Shown here piece by piece: positions 3,696 to 14,317 of a DNA stretch of 22,500 nucleotides. Below the pieces are notes generated by a model. That model was not told the DNA's origin, did no database searches, and worked only from the letters and a program-made list of their open reading frames with translations. Position 1 is the stretch's first letter; the number at the start of each line of letters is the position of its first letter. Source of the DNA: a virus; IMG/VR virus record IMGVR_UViG_3300009103_000168, positions 1-22,500 of that record. One strand, written 5' to 3'. The position numbers and the translations under genes were made by a program.

Positions 3696-6600
3696 CTACT
3701 TCCAGCGGGTCTTGGGCGACACCTTGGCTGTGTCGATCTTGCCTGTTGCCTTCAAGCCCTCAAGCGCAGCCCTACCAAAGACCTTTCCATCCATAACAAG
3801 CTTCACTTCAGTCTTCTGGGACACATTCTGCTTTATCGTCCCGCCCTTAAAGAACAGGGAGCCCTCGGCGGTGTCGTTAACAAACTTGTTAACATGATCA
3901 GATACCTTTTTCCATTCTATCATGGCGTTTCTAGCCTCCTCAATGGCTATCGCACCTCCGCCGCCTGTGGGCATTTGCACAATTTTGGACAGTGCGCCGG
4001 CAATCATTTCCATTTCACCAGTGGTGACGGTCGCCAACAGACTCTCCATTCCAACGCCAATCTGTGCTATTGCAGCGCCGTGAGATTTTTTAAGATGGCT
4101 GGCATTATAAAAGAACGCAGCCATGCCCAAGTAGAACTGACCAGCAACTGGATCCTGCCCAGCAAGTTTAAGTTGATTGACCGTTTCAATAATGGGATCA
4201 AGCTTCGTCTGGATATCGCCGCGCTCTGTGAACAATACGAATCCTTCCAGCGCTGCCTGATAGCCCTGAAAGTTGTCAATGTCTTTCTGTGAAACCTTAA
4301 AGCCCATGCCAGCAAAATCCGCTGCCTTCTCTTCAATTGTCTTTACTTCACCTTGGTCAACCAAGGCATCCCAGCCGCCGATAGTATCCGACACCGCTTT
4401 CAAGAGCGAATCGGCTGTTAACTCCTGTCCCGAAGCTACAAGCTCCTGTACCTTTGTCGTAGCTTGTGTGGCAATCTCTGCCGAACTCATGGAACCAACG
4501 CGCTTACCTCCAAGAATAGTGTCCTGAACGAAGCCTGCAACATCCCCGCCTACACCCAACATTCCGCCGAGGTTAGCGCTGTCAGACAATACGCCACCGG
4601 CTTGAGCCAACTCATGAACCCGCTCACCTGAAAGTCGTTGTCGTCCAGCTTGAAGCAAAGGCATCCCGGCTTCTTTGCGTCTTGTATTTATACCGCCAAG
4701 CTCCTCGGCATGAATATACGCCCGACCTTCGCCGAGGGTCTCGCCCCCGACGGCTCCAGCGGCTTTCTCTTTGGCGGCTTGAGCGGTTTCAACCAAGAAC
4801 CGCTGAGTTTGCATGTTTTTAAGATTTTGTCGCAGTTCCGCGAGGCGCTTTTTGCGCTTCGGTGTCAGGTCGCCTGCGGCTTCGTAGCGCTTGAGCATGT
4901 TGTAGGTCTGCATCATTTCAGGTGTAAATGCAGATGTAGCCAAGTCAGTCAGTTCAAGCGTATCTTCAAACATCTCCTTTCCAAACGTCGTAAACTCGCT
5001 GGCTCTCTTATTGAGTAGAATCTTCAGCTTCTCTTGAGCCACCATCTTCTTCGACACCATTTCCTTCTCAATATTCGCACGAGATTTAAGAGACTCCCTA
5101 ATCGCAGCGTCCTCGATCTCCTCGTAATTATCTTGAATCGATGGCATATCAACGTCGGACGCCTCATAAATCTTCAGCATTTGATCCGCTCGATTGGCGC
5201 CCCATTCGTCTGCTTTTCTTTTAGCGGCTTCAAGTGCTTCTTGTTCTGCCTGATTAAGTCCGCCGAGGGCTGCAAGCTGTGCATCGACATCGCGAGTTAT
5301 CTCATCGATCTCTTTGCGCTGGTCGTCGAAGGAACCCTTCTGGCGGCTAGCTAATCTTTTGCGCGCGGCGTTCAGTTTTTGTTCGGCGACGAGAATATTA
5401 TCCATCGCCGAAGCTTCATAGCCAGCGCTATCGCCTTCGCGCTTAAAGAGTTGTAGAAGATCTGTCTTGTCGGCGCCTTCAAGATTAACCAATTCGTCGA
5501 GGCGACCCTTCTTTGTCTCAATGCCCTGTGCAAAATCCTCGCCCATGCGTGATCTAATATTGCGAGCGACAGCAGCGCCCCCCATCGTACCTTCGCCAAA
5601 CTCTCGGCGTCCACCGGTACGAGAAATTATATCTGAAACGACTTGTTTATGCACAGCGTTAAGACCGCCATAGCGTCTTTTCTCACCCGCGAGCAAAGTC
5701 TTCATAGTATCAGAACGGGTCGCCTCCCACATTTTCTGATCGACCATTACCTTCTCATGGTAATCTCCCCACTTCCAAATAATTTTTCCAAGCCCATAGA
5801 CCGCAGATGCGATCGTACCGACCGGGAAAGCGAACATTGCAACGGTCGCGACGATATCCGCAATGCCCTCAGTAAGCTTCCAGCCGTCGAACTCTGGACC
5901 GGCAAAAGCGTCATAAATATTCATCGCTCCTTCCAAGGCTCCGAGGAAGACACCCAACGGACCCAAGATCTTGCCTACAACTGTGCCAACCGTGCCAAAC
6001 ATTCTACCGAGTTTGCCGACTTCTTTGGCTCCAGCAGCAACCTCATCGCCAAATTTTGCCATTTCTGCGAGAGCATCGGCGTGGGAAAGGCCTTTGACGC
6101 CCGCTGTTGCAGGGCCTCCGCCGATAATGGTACCACTGGAGGCTGGGATACCCGCGCGGAGTCTCATATACTCGTCCGCCATTCCCGGTGCTATCTTTGC
6201 GCCCTGAAACGCCCTCTGAAAATCAGCCATCGGACCTGCCGCCGACCCGGCACCCCTCACATCACCGACCGTATCCATTGCACCCATAGCCTGTTTAAGA
6301 GCCGCGCGGCGGTGGAAGAAGCCCAGCTTTTTGTATTCAGCGGCGCCGCCTGCCTCTTCGATTAATTTCGCCTCGGCTCTCAATCGAGTCAACTGCTCGA
6401 ACGTGGCGCGCTGATCAGCCATCGTGCGTGCTTCCCTCATGGCAGGTCCGATGCCCTTGAGACCTGCGATCACACCCTGCAACCTACCACCGGGCAAAAA
6501 CTCAGCGCCTTGAAAACCAGCTCTGGCTGCTCGGTACCCTGCGGGAACAGCCTTCATGCTCGCCCATGCCTTCGCACCACCGCTAGCTCCTCGAATGGTG

Positions 6601-8831
6601 TTTGCCGTATGAGCTTGAGCAGCCAAAGAGGCTGGGCTCTGAGCGGCGGCGAGACCGGTACCAGCGGTGGCAGCAGCGTCACCCAAAATCCCCTCCTCAT
6701 CAACTGCCACGGAATTGCCCCTCAAAGGTCCCACAATTCTCACAGCTTGAGCCTTTCTCGCCAAGGCTTCCATTGACGTAGAATCGGTATGCCCCATGAG
6801 AGCACCCCACCCCTTTTTCATTTTTTGGAGGATGCCGCCGCCGCCTCTAAATGCGTCCATGAAGCTGCCTGCACGATCGCGCATGGCGCCGAGAAGCTTG
6901 GGAACGGGACCGAGACTTGTAATGAAGCTGACGCCCAGTGTAGTGACAGCACCCGTAAGGGTTGCGGCAACACCTGCAATCTTAACCAGTCCGCCGCCGA
7001 CGAGTGCAAGAACGGGAATCAAAACAGGACCCCAACCGTCAATTTCTGCCACCCACTTACGCATATTATTTACCAGATCTGGATTGCCGAACTTTTCGCC
7101 AATCCAGTTGATCGCGCCCTCAAATGCGCTAATAAATCCAGTCGCCGCATTAATAAACCACTTCTCGATCTTTCGAATCCAACAAGCCACAAACCTTGAT
7201 GTTGCAGCGACGATCTCCTTGAGCCCCTTCTTCGCGACACGGAGTTTTCTAAAGAATTTGCCTCCAGTAATCTCATTATATTCTTTCAAGACCATGGACC
7301 AGAAGTCCTTTCCGCCTCCGCCACCGGGGGGCTTTGTCCTGCGGAGTGCTTCATTAAATTGCTTCACGGCACCAGTAATATTCTGAACCGAGCGTTGGGC
7401 TTTTTGCACTCTAGTCAAGCCGCCACCCTTGGCACCGCCAAAAAGTTTTTCTGCCTCGCTGATGTCCATCTTCATTTCTTTAGCCATAGCCTTCTTCTGG
7501 TAAACCGTCAGATCGCTCCAGCTTTTACCGGCTTTCTTCAAGCCTTCATTCATTTTATTAGCAAATTCTTCAGGAGACTCATTAGCCGCTTTCATAAGCT
7601 CAACGTTATTATAAACAGCCTTGCCGAGAATCTGGTTCATTTGGGCTGCGCCCCTCGTGGCGTCCTCAAATGTCTCAAAGCCCTTAGCCAGCCCAAGAAC
7701 ATCCTTCAGGTTAAGACCCAGCTCCTTTGTAGCCGCAGCCATTTTTCGGAACCTTACTTCAATATCGCGACCATCCGAAGGAACGGACTTAGCAAACTCT
7801 TCGAAGTCCTCCATGTATTTCGAGATGGGAACACCAAGCTTAACAGCAGAGTTATACATCTTCATCATCGCTTTCGTTGCTTGATCTCCAGTCTTGCCCC
7901 AGCGGGTCATCATTTGATCGAGAATACCTGCCGTCAGATCCGCCTCGACATTGAAAGCCGACATCTTCACAGCCATGGTCGCGAGACCCTTTTGAGTCTT
8001 CGTGCTCATATGCATGAAGCCGGTGACGCCATCCATCAAGGTTCCAACAGCTTTTGCGCCCTCGTCAAATCCAACTTTTAATTTCTTACCTAGTCGACCA
8101 GCCTCCTTAGCCATCTTTGCAAGCCCATCAGTTGCATGACCTGTCATCTTAACAAACTGATGAATATTGGCTCCGCCTCCGCCGCCTTTACTGCCGAATA
8201 ACTTTGTCAAAACGCCCGTCAAAACTTGGAATGCACTTTGCATTATTTTAGTGCCAATCTGTGCGAGAGAAATTTGCTTTGCGAACGCCTTCATGGCATT
8301 AGTCATCGCCTTAATTTTATTTTTGGACTGAATGAACTTTTTGAGCATGGAGTCCTGTTCTTTCCTGAACCCCATTGCGTTTGCCAAGTTTTTACCCCAA
8401 GCTCCCGCCTCCTCTTCGACAAACTTTCGCTGCTGTTCAGCAGCGCTGGCGGACTCCTTCTGAGTGGCGACCTTCTGGCGAAGCTTGGCAATTGATTTAT
8501 CAAGTGCTTCAGGCTCCTCTTGGCGCATCCGCAAAGTTTCTCGTAGCAGCTCCAACTCTTGTTCTTGTGCTGCCGTTCTTATGCCGGTTTGCGCCTCCAA
8601 AGAAGCAATATTTGTCTGAAGAGCCTCCTCAGACTGCAACATAAGATCGACTTGAGCTTTTGTGGTCTCGTAAGCCTGTTGACGTAGCTCAGCCTGCATA
8701 CGAAGAGCAGAATATTGGTCATCCTCTCTGGAGGCTGTGCGATTATTCAGATCGAACAGCTCTTTGGATATAGCAAGACGGTCGCGAAGCATCGCGTTTG
8801 CCTGTTCCATTAATTTAATATTTTCAGCCAT
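3696..8831 (-). CDS. Tape measure protein, 1711 residues
   Basis: This is the longest gene in the window. Tape measure proteins set tail length and are extruded ahead of the DNA. Visible parts: a charged, Glu/Gln-rich coiled-coil region at residues 1-165; a Gly-rich hinge near 215; an alpha-helical section containing 'FETFEDATRGAAQMNQILG' near 380, a pattern I associate with tape measure proteins of large T4-like phages; a second Gly-rich hinge near 500; hydrophobic segments near 598-650 and 945-1020, as expected for membrane insertion; then long helical regions to the C-terminus. T4 gp29 has about 590 residues, so this one is nearly three times longer. AGGA lies nine bases before the ATG, a weaker site than most here. 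The gene follows the gp26-type and frameshift genes and precedes the tube initiator, the usual place for a tape measure gene. Confidence 0.85.
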   Translation of the reverse strand: MAENIKLMEQANAMLRDRLAISKELFDLNNRTASREDDQYSALRMQAELRQQAYETTKAQVDLMLQSEEALQTNIASLEAQTGIRTAAQEQELELLRETLRMRQEEPEALDKSIAKLRQKVATQKESASAAEQQRKFVEEEAGAWGKNLANAMGFRKEQDSMLKKFIQSKNKIKAMTNAMKAFAKQISLAQIGTKIMQSAFQVLTGVLTKLFGSKGGGGGANIHQFVKMTGHATDGLAKMAKEAGRLGKKLKVGFDEGAKAVGTLMDGVTGFMHMSTKTQKGLATMAVKMSAFNVEADLTAGILDQMMTRWGKTGDQATKAMMKMYNSAVKLGVPISKYMEDFEEFAKSVPSDGRDIEVRFRKMAAATKELGLNLKDVLGLAKGFETFEDATRGAAQMNQILGKAVYNNVELMKAANESPEEFANKMNEGLKKAGKSWSDLTVYQKKAMAKEMKMDISEAEKLFGGAKGGGLTRVQKAQRSVQNITGAVKQFNEALRRTKPPGGGGGKDFWSMVLKEYNEITGGKFFRKLRVAKKGLKEIVAATSRFVACWIRKIEKWFINAATGFISAFEGAINWIGEKFGNPDLVNNMRKWVAEIDGWGPVLIPVLALVGGGLVKIAGVAATLTGAVTTLGVSFITSLGPVPKLLGAMRDRAGSFMDAFRGGGGILQKMKKGWGALMGHTDSTSMEALARKAQAVRIVGPLRGNSVAVDEEGILGDAAATAGTGLAAAQSPASLAAQAHTANTIRGASGGAKAWASMKAVPAGYRAARAGFQGAEFLPGGRLQGVIAGLKGIGPAMREARTMADQRATFEQLTRLRAEAKLIEEAGGAAEYKKLGFFHRRAALKQAMGAMDTVGDVRGAGSAAGPMADFQRAFQGAKIAPGMADEYMRLRAGIPASSGTIIGGGPATAGVKGLSHADALAEMAKFGDEVAAGAKEVGKLGRMFGTVGTVVGKILGPLGVFLGALEGAMNIYDAFAGPEFDGWKLTEGIADIVATVAMFAFPVGTIASAVYGLGKIIWKWGDYHEKVMVDQKMWEATRSDTMKTLLAGEKRRYGGLNAVHKQVVSDIISRTGGRREFGEGTMGGAAVARNIRSRMGEDFAQGIETKKGRLDELVNLEGADKTDLLQLFKREGDSAGYEASAMDNILVAEQKLNAARKRLASRQKGSFDDQRKEIDEITRDVDAQLAALGGLNQAEQEALEAAKRKADEWGANRADQMLKIYEASDVDMPSIQDNYEEIEDAAIRESLKSRANIEKEMVSKKMVAQEKLKILLNKRASEFTTFGKEMFEDTLELTDLATSAFTPEMMQTYNMLKRYEAAGDLTPKRKKRLAELRQNLKNMQTQRFLVETAQAAKEKAAGAVGGETLGEGRAYIHAEELGGINTRRKEAGMPLLQAGRQRLSGERVHELAQAGGVLSDSANLGGMLGVGGDVAGFVQDTILGGKRVGSMSSAEIATQATTKVQELVASGQELTADSLLKAVSDTIGGWDALVDQGEVKTIEEKAADFAGMGFKVSQKDIDNFQGYQAALEGFVLFTERGDIQTKLDPIIETVNQLKLAGQDPVAGQFYLGMAAFFYNASHLKKSHGAAIAQIGVGMESLLATVTTGEMEMIAGALSKIVQMPTGGGGAIAIEEARNAMIEWKKVSDHVNKFVNDTAEGSLFFKGGTIKQNVSQKTEVKLVMDGKVFGRAALEGLKATGKIDTAKVSPKTRWK

Positions 8832-9330: not shown

Positions 9331-9366
9331 TAAAAAAGAAAGGGGAACGCAAGCATACGTTCCCCC
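9331..9366 (-). terminator. Rho-independent terminator after the gp26-type / frameshift genes
   Basis: On the coding strand GGGGAACG and CGTTCCCC form an eight-pair stem (9358-9365 with 9342-9349) around an eight-base loop, followed by TTTCTTTTTT. It lies 13 bases beyond the stop of the start-less frame at 9379. Confidence 0.85.
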
Positions 9367-9378
9367 TCAAAAATCACT

Positions 9379-9549
9379 TTATTTTTTCATCGCCTTGTTC
9401 TCATCGTCCTTCTGTTTAATCAGCCTATCGAGGAACCACCTTCTAAGTTTAGTGGGCAAGCTGTAAGCCTCAATGAAACTCCAACCTCCATGATATTTTA
9501 AAATAAAGAACTCTTCGTAAACATATTGGGCGTATTCATCATTCAGGCC
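9379..9549 (-). CDS. Frameshift extension of the gp26-type gene (56 codons, no start codon)
   Basis: The frame is open from just after a TGA at 9565-9567 to TAA at 9379-9381. It encodes GLNDEYAQYVYEEF followed by 'YHGGWSFIEAYSLPTKLRRW' and a basic, polar tail. The composition and the aromatic/helical pattern look like real protein. There is no ATG, GTG or TTG between the upstream stop and the well-formed part; the first TTG lies at codon 31. It overlaps the end of the gp26-type gene across a T7 run, so the simplest reading is expression by +1 or -2 ribosomal slippage, giving a fusion of about 359 residues. Alternatives are a rare start (CTG at 9546) or an extra T in the assembly: with six T the two frames would be one gene. 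Function is inferred as the longer form of a tail assembly chaperone pair. Confidence 0.7.
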   Translation of the reverse strand, partial: GLNDEYAQYVYEEFFILKYHGGWSFIEAYSLPTKLRRWFLDRLIKQKDDENKAMKK

Positions 9550-10459
9550 AAAAAAACTGCGCCGTCATGGGCATCTCCACCTCGCTTTCCGAACCACAGT
9601 CTGGGCAGATGTATTGCAGAGATGTATCAACGTCTGGCTTCATCTTGACATACGATTGTCGGAGTACTCGTGCGTCATTTGCTGGCATGTTGTCGGCGAA
9701 CTTGTTAATAAGGTTCGAGTCAGTATGACCTGAGATATCAACAATCATTGCCCTGAATTGATCCGTCATTCGGCTTTCGCCAAGATTCGCCTTCTTCTTG
9801 TTCTGAGCCAACTTTTCAAGGCGCGTCTCATCAACGCCCGTAAGAAAGCGGATATTAACAATTGCCTTTGTGATTGGCAGTTGAAGTGAATAGCCGCGTG
9901 GGGTGCGCGTAACACTGTATTTTTCCACAAAAGCAGAATCAGGCACTGAAACAGTAGCATGAGACAGATCCCAGCTATGCTCATTTCGAGCAGCACAAAT
10001 AGGGCACTGGAGATTGACCTTATACTCTTCACCATAGCCGGTGATTCGAGCAGCAATCATTAGCGCGTTCTTGTCGCCTGTCAAGAGAGTGTCCGTATTG
10101 ATCTTATCAATGCACACGCTCTGAATCATTCGATCAATTGCAATGCCCTTCTTGAGAAGACTGCGTGAGGTTAGAATGTCCTCCTCTTTTGCCGTCATAA
10201 AGCGAATCTCAACGCTCTCCTTGTTGTGCCAAGGATGACCCTCTGGGTAATACTTTCCCTCGGATGGGAGGTCTACCATTTCAGTAGGGTTAACCCACTT
10301 CAGAAAGCTGTCGCTAGGATTAGCTGATTGAGGAGGGGCGGAAGCGGGGGCTGAAGAAGCCTGCTTCGACGCAGCGGCTGCTGCAACCTGCCCGCCATCC
10401 TCAAGGGCAGGTCCGGTCTTGGGAAGACCGGTTGTGCGGTCAACGTTTCTATCGCTCAT
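9539..10459 (-). CDS. 26: gp26-type baseplate hub / tail assembly protein (PF12322 family)
   Basis: The 306-residue product starts with a low-complexity Ala/Ser/Pro stretch (to about residue 50), then carries the family core: 'MVDLPSEGKYYPEGHPW' near 61-77, 'FMTAKEEDILTSRSLLKKG' near 87-105 and 'DRMIQSV' near 109. Two Cys pairs, C152/C155 (CPIC) and C295/C298 (CPDC), are likely to bind one zinc ion. T4 gp26 and gp51 are needed for hub assembly and lie just ahead of the tape measure block; this gene has the same place, between tube and tape measure genes. GAGAGG lies five bases before the ATG. The last codons cross a run of seven T, and a second frame without a start continues past the stop (see the entry at 9379-9549), so two products are likely. 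The family match is firm, the mechanistic role is inferred. Confidence 0.85.
   Translation of the reverse strand: MSDRNVDRTTGLPKTGPALEDGGQVAAAAASKQASSAPASAPPQSANPSDSFLKWVNPTEMVDLPSEGKYYPEGHPWHNKESVEIRFMTAKEEDILTSRSLLKKGIAIDRMIQSVCIDKINTDTLLTGDKNALMIAARITGYGEEYKVNLQCPICAARNEHSWDLSHATVSVPDSAFVEKYSVTRTPRGYSLQLPITKAIVNIRFLTGVDETRLEKLAQNKKKANLGESRMTDQFRAMIVDISGHTDSNLINKFADNMPANDARVLRQSYVKMKPDVDTSLQYICPDCGSESEVEMPMTAQFFWPE
9550..9556 (-). other. Candidate programmed frameshift site (T7 run)
   Basis: The coding strand reads CAG TTT TTT TGG CCT GAA TGA. After TTT TTT, skipping one T (+1), or re-reading two (-2), puts ribosomes on GGC CTG AAT in the downstream open frame. All tRNA re-pairing on a T run is possible. 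The zero-frame stop is only nine bases beyond the run, which could promote slippage. Confidence 0.6.
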
Positions 10460-10534: not shown

Positions 10535-11155
10535 CTAGACGGCTCCCCTGCCCTTACCTTTCGGTCGAGGCATGGGGCGCTTGTTGAACCCACCTGCGAT
10601 GACATAGTTGGTGCCGCCGACCAACGAATTCATAGTCGCATAGTCATAGCGAATCGACACCGAAACGTTCACCATCTCATCAGAAGAATAGTCCAGCGAG
10701 CCAAACTCTGCCTTGGTGATGAAGGGGTTGTGCAATTCCCAATGCTCGACGACTTCGCCGTCAGCATTAAGCTGCTTAATCTCAGTGACGCCCATGGCTT
10801 CAACGGCACGCTTCTTGCTGATACCCGAGGGGTTGCCACCCTTGTTGTTGGTGCCAGAGGCATAGTCCAGACCGTCAGGATAATCGTACCCCATTTGGCG
10901 CAAAAGGTTCATCATTGATGCAGCAGAATCAGGCTGGATAGGGTCGCCCAAGACAACCTCGATCGGTTGCCACTCGACACGACCGGGATGGTAAAAGGTG
11001 TGCCCCAGAAATTGGGTCGAACTCTCCGTAATTGTGAAGTTCGGCTTAGTTGTCGACTTCAGTATCCACGCTGGGATCTGATTAAAACTCATGACCCAGT
11101 TATAAGCCTTCTTGGGCTCGCTGTTTGGGTCGCTCCAAAATAATCCTTTTGCCAT
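10535..11155 (-). CDS. 19: Tail tube protein, gp19-like
   Basis: The tube is the inner channel for DNA, built of stacked hexamers. I start the protein at ATG 11155 ('MAKGLFWSDPNSEPKKAYNW', 206 residues) because AGGAG lies ten bases upstream; an in-frame GTG at 11185 would place the ribosome site inside the gene. T4 gp19 has 163 residues. Matching features are the N-terminal segment, 'FTITESSTQFLGHTFYHPGR' near residues 40-59, the strand 'EWQPIEVVLGDPI', 'MMNLLRQMGY', and the late 'FITKAEFGSLDYSSDEMVNV' strand pair where the tube protein packs into its ring. The C-terminus ends in a Lys/Arg/Gly/Pro tail. It follows the sheath gene by 87 bases, as in T4 where 18 and 19 are adjacent. Confidence 0.9.
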   Translation of the reverse strand: MAKGLFWSDPNSEPKKAYNWVMSFNQIPAWILKSTTKPNFTITESSTQFLGHTFYHPGRVEWQPIEVVLGDPIQPDSAASMMNLLRQMGYDYPDGLDYASGTNNKGGNPSGISKKRAVEAMGVTEIKQLNADGEVVEHWELHNPFITKAEFGSLDYSSDEMVNVSVSIRYDYATMNSLVGGTNYVIAGGFNKRPMPRPKGKGRGAV

Positions 11156-11196
11156 TTTTTTGATTCTCCTATAATCTAGAACCACGAGGGGTCTGT

Positions 11197-11242: not shown

Positions 11243-14200
11243 TTAGTCTGCGAACGAAGCACCGTTCCTAGCAATCACGAAATCAAGAGCAATAAACTCA
11301 ATGGCTCTCGTCGGCGCAAGCAGAATCTTCGCATACATAATGTTTCTCTCGATCAAGTCCTCTGTAGTCGTTGAACTATCAAGAACCAACTTGTAAGCAG
11401 AGAGACCGAATCGTCCCTTAACAGAAGCTAAGAGCTGATCGGCTGGTCCCTTAAATCGGTTCCAAGTCTCAGAAACATTCTGGTCAAACAAGGTCGTCGC
11501 GGCAATCTTTGAAATTTCTCTCTTGAGGAAGATCATCAACCGTCGAACATTAATTCTGTCCAGTGCGGAGGTTGTAACCTGCAAGGTCTTCTGACCAAAG
11601 ATTACGATACCCTCAGCAGGGAACTGCGCGATTGGATTAATGTTTGCATCATAAAGCTTGTCCCTCTCCTTCTGGTTAAGCTTCGCACGAACACCGACAA
11701 CTGTAATACCAGCCGCGCCGTTCTCACTCAACCCGCCTCTGGTAAATCCAGCAGGCGCAAACCAGAGTTCTTCTCTTCGGTCGGTACTTGAGAACACGCC
11801 GAGAGCCGCCACAGAAGGAGGCACCCACAGTTTTGCGTTGTTGACCGTATCCGAAATTTGGACCCACGGGTAGTAGCCGCAACCATAGCTTGAGTTAATA
11901 TCTCGTGCCTTCAGGTTACTAATGGTGTCCGCCACCGTACCCATGTCTTCCCTGAGACCCTCTGTCGTCGGGACATAACCACCCTCAAGGTCAATAATCG
12001 CCAGCATGTCACCACGACCTTCGGCGACCTCAAGCATGTGGTCCGTCAAGTCAGGGTTGGTAATACCGGGGGCGCAAACAGCGTTTGTCTCGACGACATC
12101 AGCGTCCGAAACCGCATCAATAGCCATCTTCACGCTATTAAAGGCGTAGCCCGTAAGCTCAGTCCTTCCGTTCAGCGGAGGAGTGGTGCTCTTATTGTCG
12201 TTGCCACCCGTGCTGTTACGGAAAGGCTCTTGCTCAAGAATATCAAGACCGTCGAAGCCGCCAAACATCGGAGCCGTGAACTTATTAAATCCATGGTCCA
12301 GAACGTCGGTGTAGGCACCAGTCACAGCAGTCATCGAGGTTCCAGCATAGCGGGAGCCCTGAGTCCACTTTGCGTGGACGCCATCTTTCACGAGGTCGTC
12401 AAGCGTAAACACATCAGACTGGTCAGCCAACGTAGAGGCGGAGACGTGCTGCGCTGTGTTGCCCTTTGCCTTGGCGAGACAGTCAGAGGTCTCAGCATAC
12501 GGCTGGAGGCTTCCGCTAGCGCTAGGCACCGTCGTTCCAGCAGTGCCGTCAACACCGTCGGGGGCGTAACAATAAACAATATCTGTTCCTGCCGCTGGGA
12601 AGGCGCGCGAAATATCCTTAACAGATGCTTCGAACTGCTTCGTGACGCTACCATCAGTTGCCTTAAGTCGAGTTGTGTCCAGACCGAAGAAAGTCTTAGT
12701 CGGATCGGACAGCGAACCGGAGCGCGAAGAGAGCGTCATCGGGTGCTTCGGGAACTGTGCCGAGTAAACGTGGTCGTCGTGACCGCCTGATGCACCGCTA
12801 ACAAACAAATCTGCGGTGCCCTTCGATTTGGCGGGAGAGGTCTTGCCAACGACACTTAATTTGGTATCCAAATCCGCACCGGACATGTCCTTCAGGTGAA
12901 GCGAGTTCGCCGAAGCACGTTGCATACGCCACCCCAGCATACGAGGTGCGCCGATGAAGCCGAACGGAAGGTACTTCGCATCAGTTGCGGCGTCGTCGAC
13001 ATCCGCATTCATACGAACGCGCAGGAACCGTCCCGTCACAGGGTAGTTGCCCTTAAGCACCCAACGTCGCTCTGATTCGGTCCACTCATAGTACTGATCA
13101 CCAATCTTCTTGGCAATATAGTTCTCAGCGTTCGGATTTAAAGTGCAATTCGCATACCGCTCAATATACTCTGGCGCGCCATCCTTATCGTCAATCTTTC
13201 TAATATTAACGGAGAACGTTCCATAGGGATCTTGCTTGTTGGTCGACGCCTTGACATCCTCAATGGAAATCTTAACATTGTTCTGGCACCACTCACCGTC
13301 ATCAAGACCCTCCAAGCGGAAGAGCTTCTGTTGCGTTGCCGCAGCAAATGATCCGGTAGCAGTACCAAGATCCTGACCAATAAACCAACCGGTTCTCGCA
13401 GGCTGCGTATTGCGTAAGTTAGAGCCCCACGGAAGGTCTGACGCCAAATCGGTGGCACTAGCTGATGTCCGCAAGCCAAGAATAACCGCCTGATGCGACT
13501 CGGCTGCACTGGAAGTTCCGCAAATATCAATAACATTTCTCTCGAACGTCTGTCCAAGGAAGTAGTTCTTTGTCTGAGTCGAAACCGTACCGTTAAGCAA
13601 GGTTGGGTTAGTGTTGAGACGATCGCGAATATACCGCTTGTCATCGGGGTCCAAGCCAACCTCGCAGTCCTCGACCACGCCGCCCGAACTGTCCTTAACC
13701 AAGACGCGGAAAGTGTGCCCCTTGGCAACATTCTTAACCATCAGCGCAGAACCGGAGTTTGAAACATCAGTCGTATTAACTTGCGCGCCGGAAAGCTCAA
13801 CGGCGCCGTCCTTGAGATAGAAGATTGCAGCTAGCGTGCCGCTGGTCATAGTAGTCTTAACATCAGAGCCGGACTCAAAAATAAACATTCCGTAGGCGCT
13901 ACCAGATGTCCATGAGGTGCCAGCCCCGGCATCGACGGGCTCGACGCCGACCTTCCAGCCAGCCTCAGCAGGCTGCCCAGTAGATGCGTCATCGTGAGAA
14001 CGACCCAAGAGGCGAACAATCTGAGCACGAGGCGTGCTGGCTAACCACGCCTGAGCAGCATAAGAGGCGTAACAAGGCGCGATGGCGTTGCCGTCTCTCC
14101 AGACGTCTCCGCCCGATTTACCGGGAACGGGATTTCCGAATTGCTCAACAAACTCAGCAAATGTTGAAACAGGGACCGGCCTCAAAGAGGGTCCTCTTGC

Positions 14201-14317
14201 GAATCGCCCAATAATTACCGGACCTACCGCAGCCGGGGGACCGGGGCGTTGAGAGTTGTCAATCTCATTTACATAAATTCCGGGGGATACGAACTTAAAT
14301 TGTTTACTGTCAGCCAT
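11243..14317 (-). CDS. 18: Tail sheath protein, gp18-like, 1024 residues
   Basis: The sheath surrounds the tube and contracts to drive it through the cell envelope. The N-terminus 'FKFVSPGIYVNEIDNSQRPG' (residues 8-27) followed by 'VGPVIIGRFARGPS' is typical of phage sheath proteins. The conserved C-terminal part, about residues 829-1024, has 'WVPPSVAALGVFSSTD', 'WFAPAGFTRGG', 'INPIAQFPAEGIVIFGQKTL' and 'INVRRLMIFLKREI', and ends in 'APTRAIEFIALDFVIARNG'. T4 gp18 has 659 residues; the roughly 365 extra ones lie in the middle, a Gly/Ser/Thr/Asp-rich region, probably outward-facing protrusion domains. AGGAG lies ten bases before the ATG. A perfect copy of the repeated upstream element lies 60 bases upstream, and the tube gene follows directly. 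Confidence 0.95.
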   Translation of the reverse strand: MADSKQFKFVSPGIYVNEIDNSQRPGPPAAVGPVIIGRFARGPSLRPVPVSTFAEFVEQFGNPVPGKSGGDVWRDGNAIAPCYASYAAQAWLASTPRAQIVRLLGRSHDDASTGQPAEAGWKVGVEPVDAGAGTSWTSGSAYGMFIFESGSDVKTTMTSGTLAAIFYLKDGAVELSGAQVNTTDVSNSGSALMVKNVAKGHTFRVLVKDSSGGVVEDCEVGLDPDDKRYIRDRLNTNPTLLNGTVSTQTKNYFLGQTFERNVIDICGTSSAAESHQAVILGLRTSASATDLASDLPWGSNLRNTQPARTGWFIGQDLGTATGSFAAATQQKLFRLEGLDDGEWCQNNVKISIEDVKASTNKQDPYGTFSVNIRKIDDKDGAPEYIERYANCTLNPNAENYIAKKIGDQYYEWTESERRWVLKGNYPVTGRFLRVRMNADVDDAATDAKYLPFGFIGAPRMLGWRMQRASANSLHLKDMSGADLDTKLSVVGKTSPAKSKGTADLFVSGASGGHDDHVYSAQFPKHPMTLSSRSGSLSDPTKTFFGLDTTRLKATDGSVTKQFEASVKDISRAFPAAGTDIVYCYAPDGVDGTAGTTVPSASGSLQPYAETSDCLAKAKGNTAQHVSASTLADQSDVFTLDDLVKDGVHAKWTQGSRYAGTSMTAVTGAYTDVLDHGFNKFTAPMFGGFDGLDILEQEPFRNSTGGNDNKSTTPPLNGRTELTGYAFNSVKMAIDAVSDADVVETNAVCAPGITNPDLTDHMLEVAEGRGDMLAIIDLEGGYVPTTEGLREDMGTVADTISNLKARDINSSYGCGYYPWVQISDTVNNAKLWVPPSVAALGVFSSTDRREELWFAPAGFTRGGLSENGAAGITVVGVRAKLNQKERDKLYDANINPIAQFPAEGIVIFGQKTLQVTTSALDRINVRRLMIFLKREISKIAATTLFDQNVSETWNRFKGPADQLLASVKGRFGLSAYKLVLDSSTTTEDLIERNIMYAKILLAPTRAIEFIALDFVIARNGASFAD

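Follow-up and report, generated by a model that had tools for sequence, protein, structure and literature searches.

The analysed window, 22,500 nucleotides of an IMG/VR virus record (IMGVR_UViG_3300009103_000168, positions 1 to 22,500), carries on its minus strand a gene of the PF12322 family that overlaps, on a run of seven T, a second reading frame without a start codon of its own. The arrangement raises the question of whether the two frames yield a fusion protein by programmed frameshifting and, if so, in which direction the ribosome would slip.

The PF12322 gene and its surroundings

The window is considered T4-like on account of its capsid gene, which matches Gp23 (E 3.7e-72), and of the sheath and tube genes just upstream of the junction; no DNA similarity of the window to phage records or to plasmids was found. 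The features of the region are as follows:

11243..14317 (-): tail sheath protein, upstream neighbour (PF04984, E 6.9e-6, and PF17482, E 5.6e-4, both below the gathering cut-offs)
10535..11185 (-): tail tube protein (gp19-like), upstream neighbour (phrog_4542 tail tube, E 8.6e-23; PF06841, E 5.8e-6, just below the gathering cut-off)
9539..10459 (-): zero-frame gene of the PF12322 (T4 gp26/gp51) family, 306 aa; putative short product, the N-terminal part of the tail assembly chaperone (TAC-N), gp26- and lambda G-like
9565..9567 (-): TGA closing the +1 frame upstream; the stretch from there to the extension is free of start codons
9550..9556 (-): T7 run within the slip site; an eighth T upstream is avoided among homologues
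9548..9556 (-): slip site TTT TTT TGG, third base T in 164/164 loci; TGG at 9550-9548
9539..9541 (-): zero-frame stop TGA, third codon past TGG
9382..9549 (-): +1-frame extension of 56 codons (GLNDEYAQYVYEEFFILKYHGGWSFIEAYSLPTKLRRWFLDRLIKQ...), from GGC (9549-9547) to AAA; predicted three-helix domain, gp51 C-terminus- and lambda T-like
9379..9381 (-): TAA stop of the fusion product
3696..8831 (-): probable tape measure protein, 1711 aa, downstream, assigned by position and length

The zero-frame protein scores 62.2 bits against PF12322 in Pfam (cut-off 24.5, E 7.6e-17) and also matches the baseplate hub family phrog_150 (E 3.5e-17). The gene order is that of TAC genes, with the tube gene upstream, the probable tape measure gene downstream and one 143-aa gene in between. 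The 1711-aa protein has no match in Pfam or PHROG, and annotated tape measure genes occupy the same position in loci L006, L009 and L010. Directly past the fusion stop, in the gap separating the TAC gene from its 143-aa neighbour, positions 9332-9366 hold a terminator-like hairpin (GGGGGAACG...CGTTCCCC) followed by a T-rich tract.

The zero frame ends ...ACG GCG CAG TTT TTT TGG CCT GAA TGA, overlapping the second frame on the T7 run, and the 56-codon second frame lies start-less between the TGA at 9565-9567 and the TAA at 9379-9381; both were read directly and agree with an earlier note on this DNA, as does the length of the fusion, which it had put at about 359 residues (303 + 56 = 359 aa). 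The +1 frame has no ATG, GTG or TTG at or 5′ of GGC 9549-9547, and the starts within the extension are all internal, namely a TTG at codon 31 and an ATG three codons ahead of the stop. The -1 frame meets an immediate stop at the junction (FFLA*), and the window has G TTT TTT rather than the T TTT TTY of a -1 heptamer (X XXY YYZ).

Conservation of the overlapping frame

Profile searches of IMG/VR and annotated phages yielded 326 loci, of which 247 differ from one another around the junction. The extension profile places its domain in +1 in 203 of these distinct loci, in -1 in 37 and in frame 0 in none; the other seven, one of them truncated, have no clear extension domain, which leaves 240 scorable loci. 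Such agreement goes well beyond what chance would give. The locus scans A2 and A4 used patterns touching the slip site, and A1 and A5, which did not, gave the same result. The clade of the window, defined by YTT TGG NCT, comprises 164 loci. Its nearest IMG/VR relatives, at 40-51% protein identity, keep TTT TTT TGG CCT in nearly all cases, and its cultured members include Microcystis phage Mel-JY01 (TTT TTT TGG) and Flavobacterium phage immuto (TTT CTT TGG), in whose records the extension region is annotated as a separate hypothetical protein; many phage annotations likewise omit the long form or label the extension a separate hypothetical ORF.

A homopolymer on a single metagenomic contig invites the suspicion that a sequencing or assembly error has split one continuous gene. 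This explanation is practically out of the question and already refuted by the homologues, as the same +1 relation recurs across numerous samples, in 203 distinct loci, and also in cultured phages of Microcystis and Flavobacterium; some of these loci have no seven-base homopolymer. The T-run, whose length the earlier note had proposed to follow across relatives, is 7 in 149 clade loci, 4 in six and 3 in nine, and never 5, 6 or 8. One locus nested in the +1 clade, L318, is the sole one with its extension in -1; it carries one extra base after TTT TGG CCC (around 2229), which could be a one-base sequencing error or a recent switch.

The change of coding frame is sharp. Across 81 distinct sequences, the variable codon position jumps from the third base of the zero frame to the third base of the +1 frame exactly across TTT TGG. 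Among 159 distinct sequences, the synonymous share of single-base codon differences falls from 55% upstream to 9% downstream in frame 0 and rises from 22% to 60% in frame +1. In the +1 frame, every sequence opens with GGN followed by CTN, both varying only synonymously, and the zero-frame stop follows within 3-4 codons (TGG counted) in 83 of 84 loci. As in G/GT-type genes, the second ORF overlaps the first and has no start codon of its own, and a conserved slip site leads into it. Judging by this comparative evidence, the junction is a programmed frameshift and not an artefact; the frame counts (203 in +1, 37 in -1, none in frame 0) and the coding switch at TTT TGG bear out the frameshift that had been suggested just upstream of the tape-measure region.

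Alternatively, the second frame could be translated as a separate small protein from a non-canonical or coupled start, such as the CTG at 9546-9544. Annotators do call separate ORFs, and an ATG, GTG or TTG is present in the second frame of some homologues, yet none occurs at or before GGN in 59 of the 164 clade loci, and a start with an SD-like 4-mer is found in only 20 of the 164. Moreover, the slip site leads directly into the conserved Gly-Leu, whose Leu codon (CTN) varies in its third base and is thus not a fixed start, and separate translation leaves the invariance of YTT and the avoidance of T8 unexplained, which makes it highly improbable. The expectation that homologues would lack a second-frame start holds in part: starts do occur in some, and a stand-alone one was seen just in rare distant relatives. 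In L008 (3768-3923) the extension is a separate gene whose ATG overlaps the TAA stop, and in L004 (3728-3756) an in-frame ATG lies 5′ of the extension; both are possible solutions without frameshifting, the latter less clearly so.

Slip site and probable direction of the shift

The slip codon itself is under evident constraint. It is YTT in 164 of 164 loci, whereas in the remainder of these genes 22% of Phe codons are TTC (P 7.5e-18), and the first TTT of the run is kept in 158 of 164 (P 1e-11); these P values assume independent loci, which the loci are not, and the argument is carried by the effect size and the near absence of exceptions. Next, the codon preceding the run ends in T in only three loci, against 77.5 +/- 5.3 expected; where it encodes Asp, it is GAC in 76 cases and GAT in two, in contrast to 948 GAC and 2274 GAT elsewhere. 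All three T-ending exceptions carry TTC TTT TGG, that is, a broken run. A T before the run would create the -1 heptamer T TTT TTT, the product of which usually ends at once in the clade (FFLA*).

The PF12322 gene is very probably the TAC gene of a T4-like myovirus, from which a short form and, via a +1 slip at YUU-U, a long form would be made. Most ribosomes would terminate at TGA 9541-9539 and release the 306-aa short form. In a minority, the P-site tRNA-Phe on UUU with U next (UUU UUU UGG) would move +1 onto the overlapping UUU, and reading would continue with GGC CUG ... to add the 56-aa three-helix domain of the 359-aa long form. The join, the frame, the constraint on the slip site and the homology are shown by the sequences themselves; that the ribosome shifts by +1, how efficiently it does so and that the proteins are chaperones are inferred.

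The earlier note had allowed for either a +1 or a -2 slip. A Mu-like programmed -2 frameshift on the same T7 run arrives in the same frame as +1, with a junction peptide containing one extra Phe (TAQFFFGLNDEY, QFFFGL) compared to that of +1 (...TAQFFGLNDEY..., QFFGL), and where the run is T7, tRNA-Phe can pair again after stepping back two bases. The conserved first TTT would suit -2 and fits +1 equally well, since a T7 run allows a +1 slip on either TTT codon. The natural variants of the site are more telling: although the CTT TGG variants (nine loci) discriminate poorly between the two, a -2 slip would leave tRNA-Phe mismatched on UCU, ACU or UGU in TTC TTT TGG (six loci) and in the distant variants GAA TTC TTT CGT, AAC TTT CTA and CTG TTT CGC, where +1 gives UUU or UUC. 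After a +1 move, pairing is preserved throughout the YTT-TGG variants, and +1 is therefore favoured; the shared frame stands as first described and the direction can be narrowed. A -2 slip is considered unlikely, on the strength of a few variants and the assumption of one mechanism common to all members.

Transcriptional slippage, by which a subpopulation of mRNA with six (or nine) U would join the frames, might be suspected from a homopolymer of seven whose length is tightly kept. A run of seven T is short for polymerase slippage, and in 15 clade loci with only 3 or 4 T (TTT CTT TGG, TTC TTT TGG) the frame relation is unchanged, so this route appears very unlikely. A slip at the following CCT codon, as at the proline codon of PSA, is disfavoured in the window clade, where TCT and ACT also occur at that position, synonymous only as GGN in +1.

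Elements that could stimulate the slip were sought around the site. No conserved downstream RNA structure was found (alifold on 159 sequences, 0 kcal/mol; mean z -0.72), nor was an upstream Shine-Dalgarno-like stimulator as a conserved element, the motif being present in six of 164 loci; the efficiency of the frameshift may therefore be low.

The extension domain and its relation to T4 gp26 and gp51

Both T4 gp51 and T4 gp26 match PF12322, and gp51 carries an additional C-terminal three-helix segment. Compared directly by profile, the window-type extension and the gp51 C-terminus match weakly (pairwise E 0.0065, probability 6%), and the link therefore relies on an intermediate group. The window-type extension profile aligns with the -1 extensions of P-SSM2, S-PM2, HTVC008M, phiM12 and KVP40 (E 1.2e-9), and these cyanophage/KVP40-type extensions in turn align with the gp51 C-terminus (E 2.7e-11), which the cyanophage-type profile also finds with HMMER (E 1.7e-6 in a small target set). 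The profile of the whole fusion matches gp51 with E 3.7e-6 and a probability of 87%. On this evidence, the long form carries a C-terminal helical domain of the gp51 type.

AlphaFold models, in which the extension and gp51 were folded apart, are in line with this. The extension (pLDDT 90.6) has predicted helices at 4-21, 25-30 and 33-55, and the gp51 C-terminus has them in the same order at 206-221, 226-231 and 234-248. Fold searches with the gp51 model against the PDB and with the extension model against viral models returned nothing significant.

The two forms thus appear to be a TAC pair, with gp26 as the counterpart of the short one and gp51 of the long one. The proposal that the PF12322 protein and its extension act as a G/GT-like pair finds support in the homology to the gp51-type C-terminus and in the position of the gene between tube and tape measure. 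If it works like lambda G/GT and T4 gp26/gp51, the pair would coat the tape measure protein with the domain shared by both forms, bring in tail tube subunits through the extension, and depart ahead of tail maturation. A T4-like virus of bacteria hence probably makes two versions of its tail-assembly chaperone from one gene; that the long form is produced, its proportion and its role are predictions from sequence.

A weak resemblance of the extension to DUF6760 (PF20546) was also observed. The window extension falls below the gathering score (17.8 bits against 27, E 0.0035), and 33 of 54 extension peptides (the window and 53 homologous) match it weakly, all below threshold, which may hint at a link to other contractile tail systems; by profile, the link was not found in four phage genomes.

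Relation to known frameshift systems

The G/GT mechanism is classic, and T4 has long been listed as the exception to the conserved frameshifting of tail chaperones (PMC5009743). The window gene resembles lambda G/GT in its short/long TAC pair, the predicted minority frameshift product and the location ahead of the tape measure gene; lambda slips -1, however, and the likeness is one of arrangement, not of protein sequence. Although the earlier note had regarded T4 gp26 and gp51 as not previously framed as such a pair, they were so identified by Vladimirov, Gautam and Davidson (2022, Virology 566:9-15), according to papers citing that work (PMC10885494, PMC12846349), which also attribute to it the poly-T -1 signals in T4-like TAC genes.

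The proposed shift itself resembles those of RF2 (CUU U) and influenza PA-X, in both of which the P-site tRNA moves to an overlapping, near-identical codon. A P-site YUU followed by U, as in RF2, is found in 164 of 164 loci, and the CTT TGG variants resemble the RF2 slip codon. RF2, in contrast, has an A-site stop and an upstream SD-like stimulator, whereas the A site of the window is UGG and an SD-like motif is rare in its clade; the RF2 and PA-X proteins are unrelated to the TAC of the window. PA-X is likewise without evident stimulators, and the TAC gene of Halorubrum virus HSTV-2, a G/GT-type gene of a myovirus, has been described as very likely +1 (PMC5009743). HSTV-2 is likened here by description and differs in its archaeal host. 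The 164 +1 loci with their natural site variants are a resource for studying stimulator-free +1 slippage.

The -1 relatives and probable switching between lineages

One PF12322 gene was detected in each of P-SSM2, S-PM2, HTVC008M, phiM12 and KVP40 (L351, L352, L354, L355 and L356). These genes end NNT TTT TTY (T TTT TTC or T TTT TTT), have the gp51-type extension in -1 and are likely -1 frameshift TAC genes; the same -1 heptamer is present in a separate group of jumbo phages. Like the window, the cyanophages, Pelagibacter phage, KVP40 and phiM12 have a single PF12322 gene with the same join position and a homologous extension, although theirs shifts -1 at NNT TTT TTY and that of the window +1 at TTT TTT T in register, without an eighth T. 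T4 shares the family and, through the intermediate group, the C-terminus of the long form, but employs two genes where the window has one gene and a frameshift.

In a quick-method tree of the zero-frame protein (122 rows), T4, KVP40, the cyanophages and phiM12 fall into one group (support 100), and the jumbo -1 group is separate (support 99), inside a larger set that also holds +1 groups. Given its starred branches, the tree requires the +1 label to have changed three times or more, with the deep order uncertain owing to long branches and low identity. It is probable that, inside one orthologous TAC family, the one-base register of the T-run sets the direction (NNT TTT TTY for -1; TTT TTT T without an eighth T for +1), that the opposite slip is selected against, and that lineages have moved among -1, +1 and a duplicated gene with the two proteins conserved throughout. 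The data indicate that frameshifting does take place among relatives of the T4 genes, by -1 in some and by +1 in others, and the two genes of T4 thus look like one of several routes to the same two proteins. No earlier description was found of the +1 version in this clade, its +1-pointing natural variants, the strict register or the avoidance of T8, the 2022 study being covered through papers that cite it. What appears to be new here is the +1 version and the direction set by the register of the T-run, the general trick being already known in other phages.

The slip site varies further outside the clade. In a subclade from the A5 set (L269-L341) the site is TTT TTT TAY CCT, and the A-site codon is thus not fixed as TGG. 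A distant +1 group (L149-L176, L007, L009, L151) has TTY TTT CGT CCN in place of TTT TTT TGG, with UUU-C and the following Pro codon as candidate slip sites; it shares UUU CGU with the shift site of influenza PA-X.
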